Assembly: GCA_944388665.1 (NCBI GenBank)
Contig: CALXJQ010000003.1
Span: 1 to 47,095 of the forward strand
Length of the DNA: 47,095 nucleotides
DNA from: an uncultured Clostridia bacterium
Lineage (GTDB): Bacteria; Bacillota; Clostridia; TANB77; CAG-508
Direction: 5' to 3'
Shown: piece after piece, positions 22,568 to 42,175 of the stretch
Numbering within the stretch: position 1 is the first letter of the stretch
Layout of the letters: each line of letters begins with the position of its first letter
Position numbers and translations under genes: made by a program
The notes under the pieces: generated by a model
Told to the model about the DNA's origin: nothing
Databases searched by the model: none
The model's input: only the letters and a program-made list of their open reading frames with translations

Positions 22568-23704
22568 TTACAGCATTGAGGTAAAAAAAATTTTTTTGTC
22601 CTTTACCAAAATTTTTATATTTTTATTTGGAGTCAAATACTTATTTCCAATATTATTTTTACATAACCTTATAATATCCTCCACATTTATTAGACCAATT
22701 GAGTCACTACTACCAATTATATTTGTTATAGTATATAATATAATCCTTGATTTTATTACATTTTTTTGAAGATTAAATTCTTTTAAGTCTAATACAATTT
22801 CTTTTATTTTTTCATCATTTATAGGATCCTTAATTACCCTCAAAAGCATATTTCCGTAGGCTTCTCTCACTTGTTCATCAATATAATTTTGCTCATCACT
22901 AGCCAACTTCGAAAGCCTATCAAAAGTATCAATAATATTTGGGTTAAACTCTTTTTTAATATATGGAATAACTATATTTCGTATCTTATTTCTAGTATAC
23001 TCATTCTCAAAATTAGTTTTATCAATCCTTGGGTTCAAACCATGCTCTTCACAATATCTCTCAATCTCCTGCCTATCACATTCAATCAAAGGCCTAATAT
23101 ATTTGCCTCTCTTAGGTTCAATACCTATCAATCCATTAACTCCACAACCTCTAAACAAATGCATAATTATCGTTTCAACCTTATCATTCTTATTATGTGC
23201 AATAGCAATCTTATTCGCGCCAGTCTCCTTCAAAACCTCATCAAAAAATTCATATCTTGCTTTTCTTCCTGCTTCTTCCACTCCTATCTTCTTATTATTA
23301 GCCAAACTCATCACATCTATGCTTTTCGCATAAAACTTTATGCCATTTTTCTCGCAATACTCCTTAACATACTGCTCATCATCCTTTGCTTCTTCCCTAA
23401 TAAGGTGATTTACGTGAGCCACCACCAAAAAATTTGCCAAGAGGGACGTAGCGTTTTGGCAATTTTTTGCCACTGGGGACGTACCTTTTTGGCAATTTTT
23501 TGCCATTTTGCTACGTCCCTCTTGGCAATTTGTGAAAATAAAATTGTTTTCTTTTTGAAGCTTTAATAAAATGTCCAGCATGCACATTGAATCTGGACCA
23601 CCTGAAACTCCAAGTACAATTTTATCTCCTGGATTTATTAAGTTAAACTTTCTAATAGTATTAGCAACTTTATCTTTTAATGTTATTTTTTGGCAATCAT
23701 GCAT
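22568..23704 (-). CDS. tilS: tRNA(Ile)-lysidine synthase with in-frame repeat insertion
   Basis: Converts C34 to lysidine in the CAU-anticodon tRNA(Ile), an essential decoding function. The 378-residue product has the PP-loop SGGPDS (34-39), then AHVNHLIREEAKDDE, AIAHNKNDKVETIIMHLFRG and IRPLIE, followed by the C-terminal TilS domains. Residues about 58-91, between the first helix and the strand FLVVAHVNH, are a foreign insertion: three 11-residue repeats (TNCQEGRSKMA, KNCQKGTSPVA, KNCQNATSLLA) encoded by three REP-like units. The frame is kept on both sides. ATG at 23704 has AAAGG 8 nt upstream; the GTG at 23713 overlaps that site. It starts 5 bp after the stop of the upstream small gene. 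Confidence 0.95.
   Translation of the reverse strand: MHDCQKITLKDKVANTIRKFNLINPGDKIVLGVSGGPDSMCMLDILLKLQKENNFIFTNCQEGRSKMAKNCQKGTSPVAKNCQNATSLLANFLVVAHVNHLIREEAKDDEQYVKEYCEKNGIKFYAKSIDVMSLANNKKIGVEEAGRKARYEFFDEVLKETGANKIAIAHNKNDKVETIIMHLFRGCGVNGLIGIEPKRGKYIRPLIECDRQEIERYCEEHGLNPRIDKTNFENEYTRNKIRNIVIPYIKKEFNPNIIDTFDRLSKLASDEQNYIDEQVREAYGNMLLRVIKDPINDEKIKEIVLDLKEFNLQKNVIKSRIILYTITNIIGSSDSIGLINVEDIIRLCKNNIGNKYLTPNKNIKILVKDKKIFFTSML
23434..23528. repeat. REP-like triplet, type 3, inside tilS
   Basis: Three 29-bp units with TTGCCA/TGGCAA stems at 23434-23462, 23467-23495 and 23500-23528; the first two read GGGACGTA on the plus strand and the third is inverted (TACGTCCC). Spacers are 4 bp of T. 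The array is inside the coding region of tilS and keeps it open. Confidence 0.93.
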
Positions 23705-23709
23705 AACTA

Positions 23710-24039
23710 TCACCCTTTCTTATCTAATTGCCTCAAAGTTTCTCTGCTTACACCTATTACACTTTCTATTTCTCTATATGAAACACCATAAGTAACTTTC
23801 AATGTATGCACTACTTCTTTTAGTTTTTCTCTGTTTCCCCTTTTTGAAGCTAAAATAGGCGAAATTCCTTGTTCATTCAATTTGTCAATAATTAAATTTC
23901 TGTTATCAGCTTTTTTATCAGTCTTCTCCTCCAAAAATGCGAATTCATTATTTTCTTCTGCATCGCACTCTTTCAAATTGGCACCTTCTATGATTCGTCC
24001 AACACTTTGGTATAATCTTGTTCTATCCGCTCCATACAT
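23710..24039 (-). CDS. Small protein with C-terminal HTH-like segment
   Basis: Function unknown. 109 residues; N-terminal part is acidic and not recognisable, residues about 66-105 (KRGNREKLKEVVHTLKVTYG, then VSYREIESVIGVSRETLRQL) look like a helix-turn-helix of the homeodomain-like/DnaA-C type. Similar tails occur at the end of REP-associated tyrosine transposases, so it could be a remnant of one, but the HUH catalytic part is absent. The ATG has no clear Shine-Dalgarno and an in-frame stop lies seven codons upstream. It ends 5 bp before tilS and shares its promoter. Regulatory protein or transposase relic cannot be distinguished here. Confidence 0.5.
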   Translation of the reverse strand: MYGADRTRLYQSVGRIIEGANLKECDAEENNEFAFLEEKTDKKADNRNLIIDKLNEQGISPILASKRGNREKLKEVVHTLKVTYGVSYREIESVIGVSRETLRQLDKKG

Positions 24040-24071
24040 TTTGGTAAAACTAGAATATTAGATGAAAAAAT

Positions 24072-24215
24072 AGGGATATATTATTGTTTCTTGCTCTTCT
24101 TGTAATTTTTCCTCATTCCTTTCTACAATTTTAATAATAACCCCTTATCATACTCTCTATTTATTTTTAATATAGCCCTTTTTAATTCATCAATATTCGC
24201 TGTTTGATATTCGCT
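24072..24215 (-). pseudogene. Possible decayed coding stretch
   Basis: On the minus strand three frames in succession give protein-like segments: YQTANIDELKKGY, then AILKINREYDKGLLLK, then IVERNEEKLQEEQETI. Together they read like one helical protein broken by two frameshifts. No family is recognised. A short direct repeat (CAGCGAATAT twice) lies at its start. Confidence 0.25.
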
Positions 24216-24353: not shown

Positions 24354-24415
24354 TTGCCAAGAGGGACGTAGCTTAATGGCAAAAAATTGCCAAAAAGCTA
24401 CGTCCCTGGTGGCAA
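24354..24415. repeat. REP-like inverted pair, type 3
   Basis: Units 24354-24382 (GAGGGACGTAGC core) and 24387-24415 (GCTACGTCCCT core) in opposite orientation, 4-bp spacer, stems TTGCCA/TGGCAA. The first 20 bp of the left unit are identical to the first unit of the tilS array. Confidence 0.92.
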
Positions 24416-24440
24416 ATTTTAAAATTATAAATATTAAAAT

Positions 24441-24618
24441 ATAGCTGTATTTCTATTAAATTTATGCAATGACGAATGCGATTGGAGTGGTTGTAGCCAT
24501 TCTTGATATTAAATAAATGAGGGCGCGCTTCGCGAGAGGCTCGTTTGTTTAATATTTAGAATGGCTAAACCACGCATTGAGCCGAGGAATGAATAAATTT
24601 AATAGAAATATCAGCTAT
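24441..24618 (+). ncRNA. 178-bp long hairpin element
   Basis: Outer arms ATAGCTG...TTTCTATTAAATTTAT (24441-24465) match the complement of 24594-24618 with one extra base; further in, GTGGTT-TAGCCATTCT and ATATTAAA blocks pair with their counterparts; the apex is CGCG-CTT-CGCG (24524-24534). Arms differ in several places; near the apex the changes give G.U pairs only on the plus strand (AAATAAATGAG with CTCGTTTGTTT). This could be a structured RNA or a MITE-like palindromic insertion. GC is higher at the tip than in the surroundings. No promoter or family is recognised. Confidence 0.5.
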
Positions 24619-24642
24619 TATTATAGTAGTAATAGATAAAAA

Positions 24643-24803: not shown

Positions 24804-26138
24804 TTAGTCATCGAATCGTTTTTCGAGGTTTACAAATTTTGTATAGCTTCCAAGCCACAATAGTTCTACTGTGCCAGTTGAGCCACCTCTATGCTTTGCT
24901 AATATAACTTCTGCTATATCCTTTTTTTCACTATCTGGGTTGTAGTAATCATCTCTATACAGAAACATTACAATGTCTGCATCTTGCTCTATGGCGCCAG
25001 ATTCACGTAAGTCTGAAAGCATTGGTCTGTGGTCTGGTCTTTGCTCTACGGCTCTTGACAGCTGTGATACTGCAATTACAGGGACGTTAATTTCTTTGGC
25101 CAATATTTTTAATGACCTACTAATTTCTGAAATTTCTTGTTCACGGCTACCATTTCTTCTATTCGTTCCTTGTATTAATTGCAAATAGTCGATTATAACC
25201 ATACCAATATTTTTTTCAAGTTTCAATTTTCTACATTTAGCGCGGATTTCTGTTACTGAAATTCCTGGCGTATCATCAATGTATATTTCTGACTCTGAAA
25301 GAGGTCCTATTGCTGAAGCGAGCTTAGCCCAGTCGCCTTCTTCTAGTTTTCCTGTTCTCACTTTGTTGCTATCGACCATTGCTTCACTACACAAAATTCT
25401 GTTTACAAGTTGCTCTTTTGACATTTCCAAGCTAAAAATTGCCACAGGCACTTTGGCTCTAACTGCGGCATTTGTAGCAATGTTCAATGCAAAAGCTGTT
25501 TTTCCCATAGCAGGTCTGGCAGCTACCAGTATTAAATCTGATGGATGAAATCCCGCTGTTTTATAATCTAATTCAGTAAATCCTGTTGGAACGCCAGTAA
25601 TATACTGCTTACGATTATATAATTCCTCTAGCTTGGTAAAACTATCAACCAAAACATCCTTTATCGGAGCATATCCCTTCTGATCTTTATCCTGCATTAT
25701 GTTAAAAATTTTCTTTTCAGAGCTTTCCATAATTTCATCAACATCTTCTGTTGGGTCATATCCCAATTCGATAATTTCATTTGCAGTTTTTATCAAATTT
25801 CTTAATGTTGATTTTTCTTTAACAATCTTAATATATTTTGATGCATTAGCCGTAGTTGGCACTTTATCTGGCAACGAAACTATGTACTCCAAGCCACCAA
25901 CTTGTTCGAATTTTCCCATTGACTCTAATTCAGCTTTAACAGTTATTATATCTATCGGTTCTGCTCTATTATACAAATTGTATATTGCTGAATATATAAT
26001 TCTATTATCTTCGCGATAAAAATCTTCTTCTTTTAGGACTTCAATCGCTGAAGTTACAGCATCTTTATCTGTAAGCATACTACCTATTATTGCTTGTTCT
26101 GCTTCAGTATCATGTGGCGGTACTTTTCCTAGCTCCAT
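24804..26138 (-). CDS. dnaB: Replicative DNA helicase
   Basis: Hexameric helicase of the replication fork (called DnaC in B. subtilis). The 444-residue product has the N-terminal primase-interacting domain (PHDTEAEQAIIGSML), Walker A ARPAMGKT (207-214), Walker B VIIDYLQLI and the QLSRAVEQRPDHRP arginine-finger segment. Length is standard. ATG at 26138 is preceded by GGGGG. Last gene of gdpP-rplI-dnaB, the usual Firmicutes order. Confidence 0.98.
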   Translation of the reverse strand: MELGKVPPHDTEAEQAIIGSMLTDKDAVTSAIEVLKEEDFYREDNRIIYSAIYNLYNRAEPIDIITVKAELESMGKFEQVGGLEYIVSLPDKVPTTANASKYIKIVKEKSTLRNLIKTANEIIELGYDPTEDVDEIMESSEKKIFNIMQDKDQKGYAPIKDVLVDSFTKLEELYNRKQYITGVPTGFTELDYKTAGFHPSDLILVAARPAMGKTAFALNIATNAAVRAKVPVAIFSLEMSKEQLVNRILCSEAMVDSNKVRTGKLEEGDWAKLASAIGPLSESEIYIDDTPGISVTEIRAKCRKLKLEKNIGMVIIDYLQLIQGTNRRNGSREQEISEISRSLKILAKEINVPVIAVSQLSRAVEQRPDHRPMLSDLRESGAIEQDADIVMFLYRDDYYNPDSEKKDIAEVILAKHRGGSTGTVELLWLGSYTKFVNLEKRFDD

Positions 26139-42097: not shown

Positions 42098-42175
42098 ATG
42101 TTTTTGGGGACGGTGTTTTTGGGGACGGAGGAAAAAAACATCTTTGTTGCCATCAGGGACGTACCTTTTTGGCAA
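42098..42175. repeat. REP-like array, types 2 and 3, before acpS
   Basis: A partial type 2 unit (42098-42114, ending GGGGACGG), a full type 2 unit (42112-42142, core GGGGACGGAGG) in tandem, and a type 3 unit (42147-42175, core AGGGACGTACC). It ends 28 bp before the acpS start. Confidence 0.9.

Follow-up and report, generated by a model that had tools for sequence, protein, structure and literature searches.

The tilS locus and its REP triplet

The window, by which we mean the whole stretch of 47,095 nucleotides analysed here, includes a dnaB gene and a tilS gene (Table 1). The tilS product, a tRNA(Ile)-lysidine synthase, matches the Pfam ATP_bind_3 family at 2e-53 in a profile search, and the best structural matches of its AlphaFold model are the TilS structures 1wy5, 2e21 and 3a2k. 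TilS is generally an essential enzyme, and this is assumed to hold for the window organism as well. Apart from this gene the genome has a single PP-loop match, 21% identical over part of the protein, and no second TilS was found.

Table 1. Positions of the features discussed in the text
Feature	Position	Strand	Basis and remarks
tilS, tRNA(Ile)-lysidine synthase	22568..23713	-	381 aa, GTG start, single intact frame
tilS 5' part (start, PP-loop SGGPDS, helix alpha1), upstream of the REPs	23529..23713	-	assigned by position here; exchanged together with RAYT in relatives
Type-3 REP unit 1 in tilS	23434..23462	+	perfect pattern match
Type-3 REP unit 2 in tilS	23467..23495	+	perfect pattern match
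Type-3 REP unit 3 in tilS	23500..23528	-	perfect pattern match, inverted relative to units 1 and 2
109-aa ORF, RAYT C-terminal remnant	23710..24039	-	match to full-length RAYTs over 24057-23716; overlaps tilS start
Possible RAYT N-terminus shred ITRRARNNNISLFFHLI	24056..24106	-	E 0.09, supported by position only; other frame, abuts the C-terminal part
Type-3 REP, first half of inverted pair on the far side of the RAYT remnant	24354..24382	+	pattern match, fold
Type-3 REP, second half of the same pair	24387..24415	-	pattern match, fold
dnaB, left neighbour	24804..26138	-	ORF, profile match; highly conserved cassette flank in relatives
Type-3 REP, dispersed copy	42147..42175	+	pattern match

A reading made from the sequence alone had pointed to three type-3 REP units lying in frame within tilS, and the pattern TTGCCANNNGGGACGTANCNNNNTGGCAA indeed has three perfect matches there, at 23434-23528, where shuffled sequences lead one to expect 0.00. 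The units are translated, as that reading had it, into three 11-residue repeats (TNCQEGRSKMA, KNCQKGTSPVA and KNCQNATSLLA) between the PP-loop helix and the AHVNH strand. Since the third unit is inverted, the array consists of an inverted REP pair, or REPIN, with one additional unit. As single-stranded DNA it folds into a very stable hairpin (z = -10.5), and it has no match in Rfam.

In the AlphaFold model, residues 61-91 have a pLDDT below 50 and are flanked by a helix (40-54) and a strand (96-102), while the remainder of the protein is modelled with confidence. The segment that the repeats encode, between alpha1 and the AHVNH strand, is thus predicted to be a disordered loop. Modelling had been proposed as a check on the sequence-only reading, and its suggestion of a tolerated surface loop gains support both from this result and from relatives without an adjacent transposase gene, in which the loop is mostly 19-23 residues long. 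The same reading would have been contradicted by a second intact tilS, or by a loop of similar length without repeat similarity in all relatives; no such gene was found in the genome, and loop lengths differ among the relatives.

The 109-aa ORF that overlaps the start of tilS is, by its match to full-length proteins, what is left of the C-terminal part of a REP-associated tyrosine transposase (RAYT). It lacks the catalytic HUH/Tyr core and has a weak match to HTH_28. In the interval from dnaB to tilS, no integrase was noted. Just past the type-3 pair upstream of the remnant, at 24430-24630, is a near-perfect, MITE-like hairpin of about 200 nt (DNA fold z -10.5), of which the genome contains about 10 copies at 89-98% identity.

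Three REP-RAYT systems in one genome

The 1.4 Mb genome contains about 330 REPs in total: about 165 copies of type 1, 62 of type 2 and 103 of type 3, the last counted with one mismatch allowed. Two intact RAYT genes are found elsewhere in the genome, one within inverted type-2 REPs (L051, on G000 C5) and the other within inverted type-1 REPs (L052, on G000 C34). Both match PF01797 above the cut-off, as do the RAYT genes of relatives, and the window copy consists of the C-terminal remnant only. With L051 belonging to type 2, L052 to type 1 and the remnant to type 3, there is one RAYT locus for each REP type, and that of type 3, beside tilS, is the dead one.

The tetranucleotide GTAG is absent from most of the REP types here, and in type 3 it is not located at the foot of the hairpin. 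These are not canonical GTAG-footed REPs.

Type-3 sites were sampled in 20 stretches of the genome, which hold 39 units besides those in tilS, and none of the 39 truly lies within a gene. The proposal that a mobile palindrome had been inserted into an essential gene is not supported by this comparison; the tilS units are better described as the downstream flanking REPs of the RAYT locus. Nor does the event look recent, as had been suggested, for in much of the genus the RAYT locus has stayed where it is while its REP types changed.

The same locus in related genomes

The relatives are uncultured gut Clostridia of the same genus, of which more than 190 genomes were searched, all of them metagenome-assembled (MAGs). 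A tilS match at 1e-30 was missing from 12 of 195 genomes, probably because these are incomplete; contigs that break at REP arrays, as in G022, may add to the number.

All 26 intact dnaB-RAYT-tilS loci of the genus that were first examined have REPs at the tilS loop. Where the loop could be parsed, it is REP-derived in 24 of 24 loci with an intact RAYT and in 5 of 5 with a broken one, although in one of these (L108) the REP is degenerate. An inverted copy of the loop REP is found just upstream of RAYT in most of the intact loci. The distance from GGPDS to HxNH in the 24 intact loci ranges from 21 to 92 residues, with a median of 40. Among 42 loci with no adjacent RAYT, 34 have no loop REPs and mostly 19-23 residues, and 8 keep one; for three (L010, L014 and L015) the absence of RAYT was judged on limited upstream sequence. 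A second collection, from GTDB, added two RAYT loci with loop REPs and 63 RAYT-less loci, all 63 of them short-looped, as well as one exception, L128, in which the loop has 23 residues and the downstream REP is located in the intergenic gap between RAYT and tilS.

The longest loop belongs to the TilS of G140 (L100:1133-2413), which has six tandem CHLNPEPMA-type units in its 92 residues. In L114 (about 1158-2278) and L116 (about 1182-2166) REPs are present in tilS, which is apparently frame-shifted at the array in these MAGs, either through assembly error or real decay; L116 has a second frameshift further on.

The loop REP differs in sequence from species to species, and is translated into peptides such as NCQKGPSPMA and ENLSCHLNPEPMA. 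The frame differs as well: L071 and L073 use another one than the others, and in L004 and L088 a single REP type is translated in two frames inside one protein. That the REP is read in different frames indicates that it is the DNA, and not the peptide, that is conserved. Selection for the peptide as such was rejected on these grounds.

The type of REP at tilS follows that of the neighbouring RAYT. Two RAYT clades correspond exactly, in every case, to the REP cores CGGAAC and CGTCCC. The RAYT and tilS trees, made by quick tree searches, are correlated (r 0.46, 0/5000 permutations), and on the tree of the tilS C-terminal part the REP/RAYT type, defined by its core, changes seven times, at least four of these being forced by well-supported branches. 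A test with phylogenetically independent pairs gave about 5 to 0, with a median p of 0.06 from few pairs.

Counts of dispersed copies were made with five patterns in 31 genomes and depend on the patterns chosen. In most genomes tested, the REP type in tilS is also that of the genome's own dispersed family (21-128 copies, compared to 0-5 in nearly all others), with L097, L108 and a few others having a loop REP that was not matched to a genome family. Three genomes that have lost RAYT and kept the tilS REP (G020, G108 and G165) contain just 2-5 dispersed copies. G094 and G194 have 23 and 33 copies of a second REP type, other than that in tilS. G107 and G179, the genomes with the L089 and L110 cassettes, have a RAYT and a tilS REP of the CGTCCC type with almost no dispersed copies, while REPs of the CGGAAC type number 21 and 30; we read this as a probable recent replacement of the REP system.

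Exchange of the segment between dnaB and the tilS loop

Several pairs of loci are mosaic. In L110/L085, L089/L004, L094/L022 and L026/L080, identity is around 0.8-1.0 in dnaB and after the loop and falls to 0.3-0.8 in between. Comparisons of L089 with L088, and of L080 and L099 with L026 and L103, give the same kind of profile: high in dnaB, a dip to 0.3-0.8 and a recovery after the loop. The dip spans the upstream REP, RAYT and the 5' end of tilS, corresponding to its first 50 or so codons. Pairs with the same cassette have a flat profile.

Over all pairs at least 80% identical after the loop, the mean drop in protein identity of the 5' segment is 0.00 for pairs of the same type and 0.02 where both lack RAYT, compared to 0.25 for pairs of different types and 0.21 for a RAYT locus against a RAYT-less one without REP. 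The diversity of the 5' segment is raised in RAYT-bearing species only (within-group identity 0.595 vs 0.678, compared to 0.687 vs 0.689 after the loop). In L128, with its REP outside tilS, the 5' segment and the rest of tilS are equally similar to those of a RAYT-less relative (0.84/0.84); the 5' segment is not divergent, as the cassette model predicts.

Exchange extends to segments without RAYT. L022 has dnaB immediately before tilS and is almost identical to L094 after the loop, yet the two differ in the 5' segment. The idea that RAYT is always lost through deletion was rejected, because L022, L026 and L103 lost it with the 5' segment of tilS replaced. L024 and L014 lost RAYT and kept their 5' segment, so replacement is not the sole route of loss either. 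A duplicated 5' end of tilS, the trace expected of an additive insertion, was searched for and none was found; with no second 5' end left over, the exchange amounts to replacement.

By these patterns, the REP-RAYT-tilS 5'-REP segment has been exchanged as a cassette several times in the genus. The exchange is seen directly in the relatives, whose cassettes include none that is close to that of the window.

How the REPs came to lie within tilS

The anatomy of the locus, the association of loop REPs with RAYT, the matching of REP types, the mosaic boundaries and the exchange of the segment can all be read from the sequences themselves. The explanation that we favour, at a probability of about 0.84, is that a REPtron, meaning a RAYT gene with inverted REPs on both sides, occupies the interval between dnaB and tilS, that the triplet forms its downstream REP boundary, and that the segment behaves as an exchangeable cassette. 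The triplet would then be the right-hand edge of the unit. We infer that RAYT needs a REP on each side; since the RAYT and tilS frames abut or overlap, the downstream REP would have to be located at the first tolerant site in tilS, which is the surface loop between alpha1 and beta2. There it would be translated in any frame that is open, the peptide being incidental, and the DNA hairpin would persist as a part of the RAYT unit. In several lineages the segment, including the first 50 or so tilS codons, was replaced by one of another type or by an allele lacking RAYT, which yielded a chimaeric TilS. In the window species, the catalytic core of RAYT is gone, but the tilS array persists, as do about 100 type-3 copies.

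Could mobile REPs or REPINs instead have hit a permissive tilS loop repeatedly, like the Rickettsia palindromic elements, with the adjacency of RAYT a coincidence? The loop is disordered in the model, REPs within genes are already known (PMC3733652), and species differ in REP type, all of which would fit. However, none of the 39 other type-3 units sampled is internal to a gene, and all 29 loci to which a RAYT, intact or broken, is adjacent have loop REPs, compared to 8 of the 42 that have no such neighbour. Furthermore, the partner REP upstream of RAYT is inverted and the clade of the neighbouring RAYT predicts the REP type. Random insertion of a mobile REP was rejected on the RAYT linkage, and we regard independent insertion as highly improbable. 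It is also very unlikely that the hairpin was retained for a role as regulatory RNA, or for a peptide of use in TilS, with the RAYT linkage secondary. The stability of the hairpin, and the overlap between RAYT and tilS, which implies that the two may be co-translated, are in favour of such a host function, but one REP is read in different frames between species and even within one protein, the REPs are often lost after RAYT is lost, and no Rfam family matches.

The manner of exchange is a separate matter, on which the cassette explanation is compatible with more than one answer. It is about an even bet that the exchange is purely a matter of ordinary homologous recombination, with dnaB and tilS as the conserved flanks in which it takes place; the REPs would mark the boundary because what lies between them has diverged too far for recombination. 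In most close pairs dnaB is 95-100% identical, the exchange is a replacement that leaves no duplicated tilS 5' end, and L022 acquired a RAYT-free segment, with no transposase. Against this, in several events the return to recipient-like identity comes about 0-60 nt from the loop, which is tighter than random crossovers would give and speaks for a part played by the REPs, although the mosaic pairs were selected for similar C-terminal parts, a choice that favours tight-looking boundaries. A process driven by RAYT, in which a mobile REP-RAYT-tilS 5'-REP unit recognises the resident tilS REPs, takes out the segment present there and puts its own in place, is conceivable but rather doubtful.

Implications

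Why RAYTs persist as single-copy genes over millions of years is an open question. A RAYT unit with one edge inside an essential gene could offer an explanation, since clean excision would break tilS and the unit could be replaced only along with the front end of tilS. If RAYT does drive the exchange, the unit would be an element with a Y1 transposase that secures its place in an essential gene by bringing that gene's 5' end along, its loss by simple excision then being lethal. The genus provides a natural series at a fixed locus, in which RAYT and REP types match and RAYT has been lost or swapped. This makes three things directly testable: RAYT-REP specificity, the turnover of REP families after replacement (in G107 and G179), and how chimaeric housekeeping proteins arise.

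Comparison with known systems

REPtrons in which inverted REPs flank the gene and each RAYT has its own REP type are known (PMC2817692, PMC6006769). The locus described here resembles REPtron and REPIN-RAYT systems (PMC2817692, PMC6006769, PMC8049555) in having a Y1 transposase gene within inverted REPs, one RAYT for each REP type, hundreds of dispersed intergenic REPs and a REP type that tracks the RAYT clade. The RAYT-type Y1/HUH gene is seen in the relatives and in L051 and L052, inverted REPs are present on both sides, and dispersed copies occur except in G107 and G179. Unlike in a typical REPtron, the downstream REP lies within the coding sequence of a neighbouring essential gene, the RAYT segment is swapped along with the 5' end of that gene, and the REPs lack a GTAG foot, as has been reported for relatives of subclass 2.6 and class 3 (PMC6006769). 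According to published descriptions, the inheritance of RAYTs is vertical (PMC8049555) and REPtrons do not move as units (PMC6006769), and models take a REP copied into a gene as destroying that gene (PMC8049555).

Intragenic REPs and the Rickettsia palindromic elements (PMC3733652) are likewise in-frame palindromes in conserved genes, adding tens of residues. Theirs are spread across many genes, whereas here one site in one gene is used genus-wide, linked to RAYT and with a changing REP family; among the sampled type-3 sites, only tilS has its REPs in frame, rather than many unrelated genes.

A further parallel is offered by the integrative elements that supply a 5' end, such as the dusA islands and SXT in prfC (PMC8409611), mobile segments with an alternative N-terminal coding part that create a chimaeric open gene. 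In the relatives of the window species, too, the segment carries an alternative 5' end of its target gene, and the N-terminal identity of 50-60% is similar to that in dusA, 61% over 35 residues (PMC8409611). Those elements use an integrase and an att site and are additive, whereas the present locus involves a Y1 transposase, REP boundaries, a segment of about 1 kb and replacement. Among the open papers searched, none reports a REPtron with a boundary inside an essential gene and swapped together with its 5' end. The capture of an essential gene's 5' end between the REPs of a REPtron, and its exchange along with the unit, thus appears to be new.
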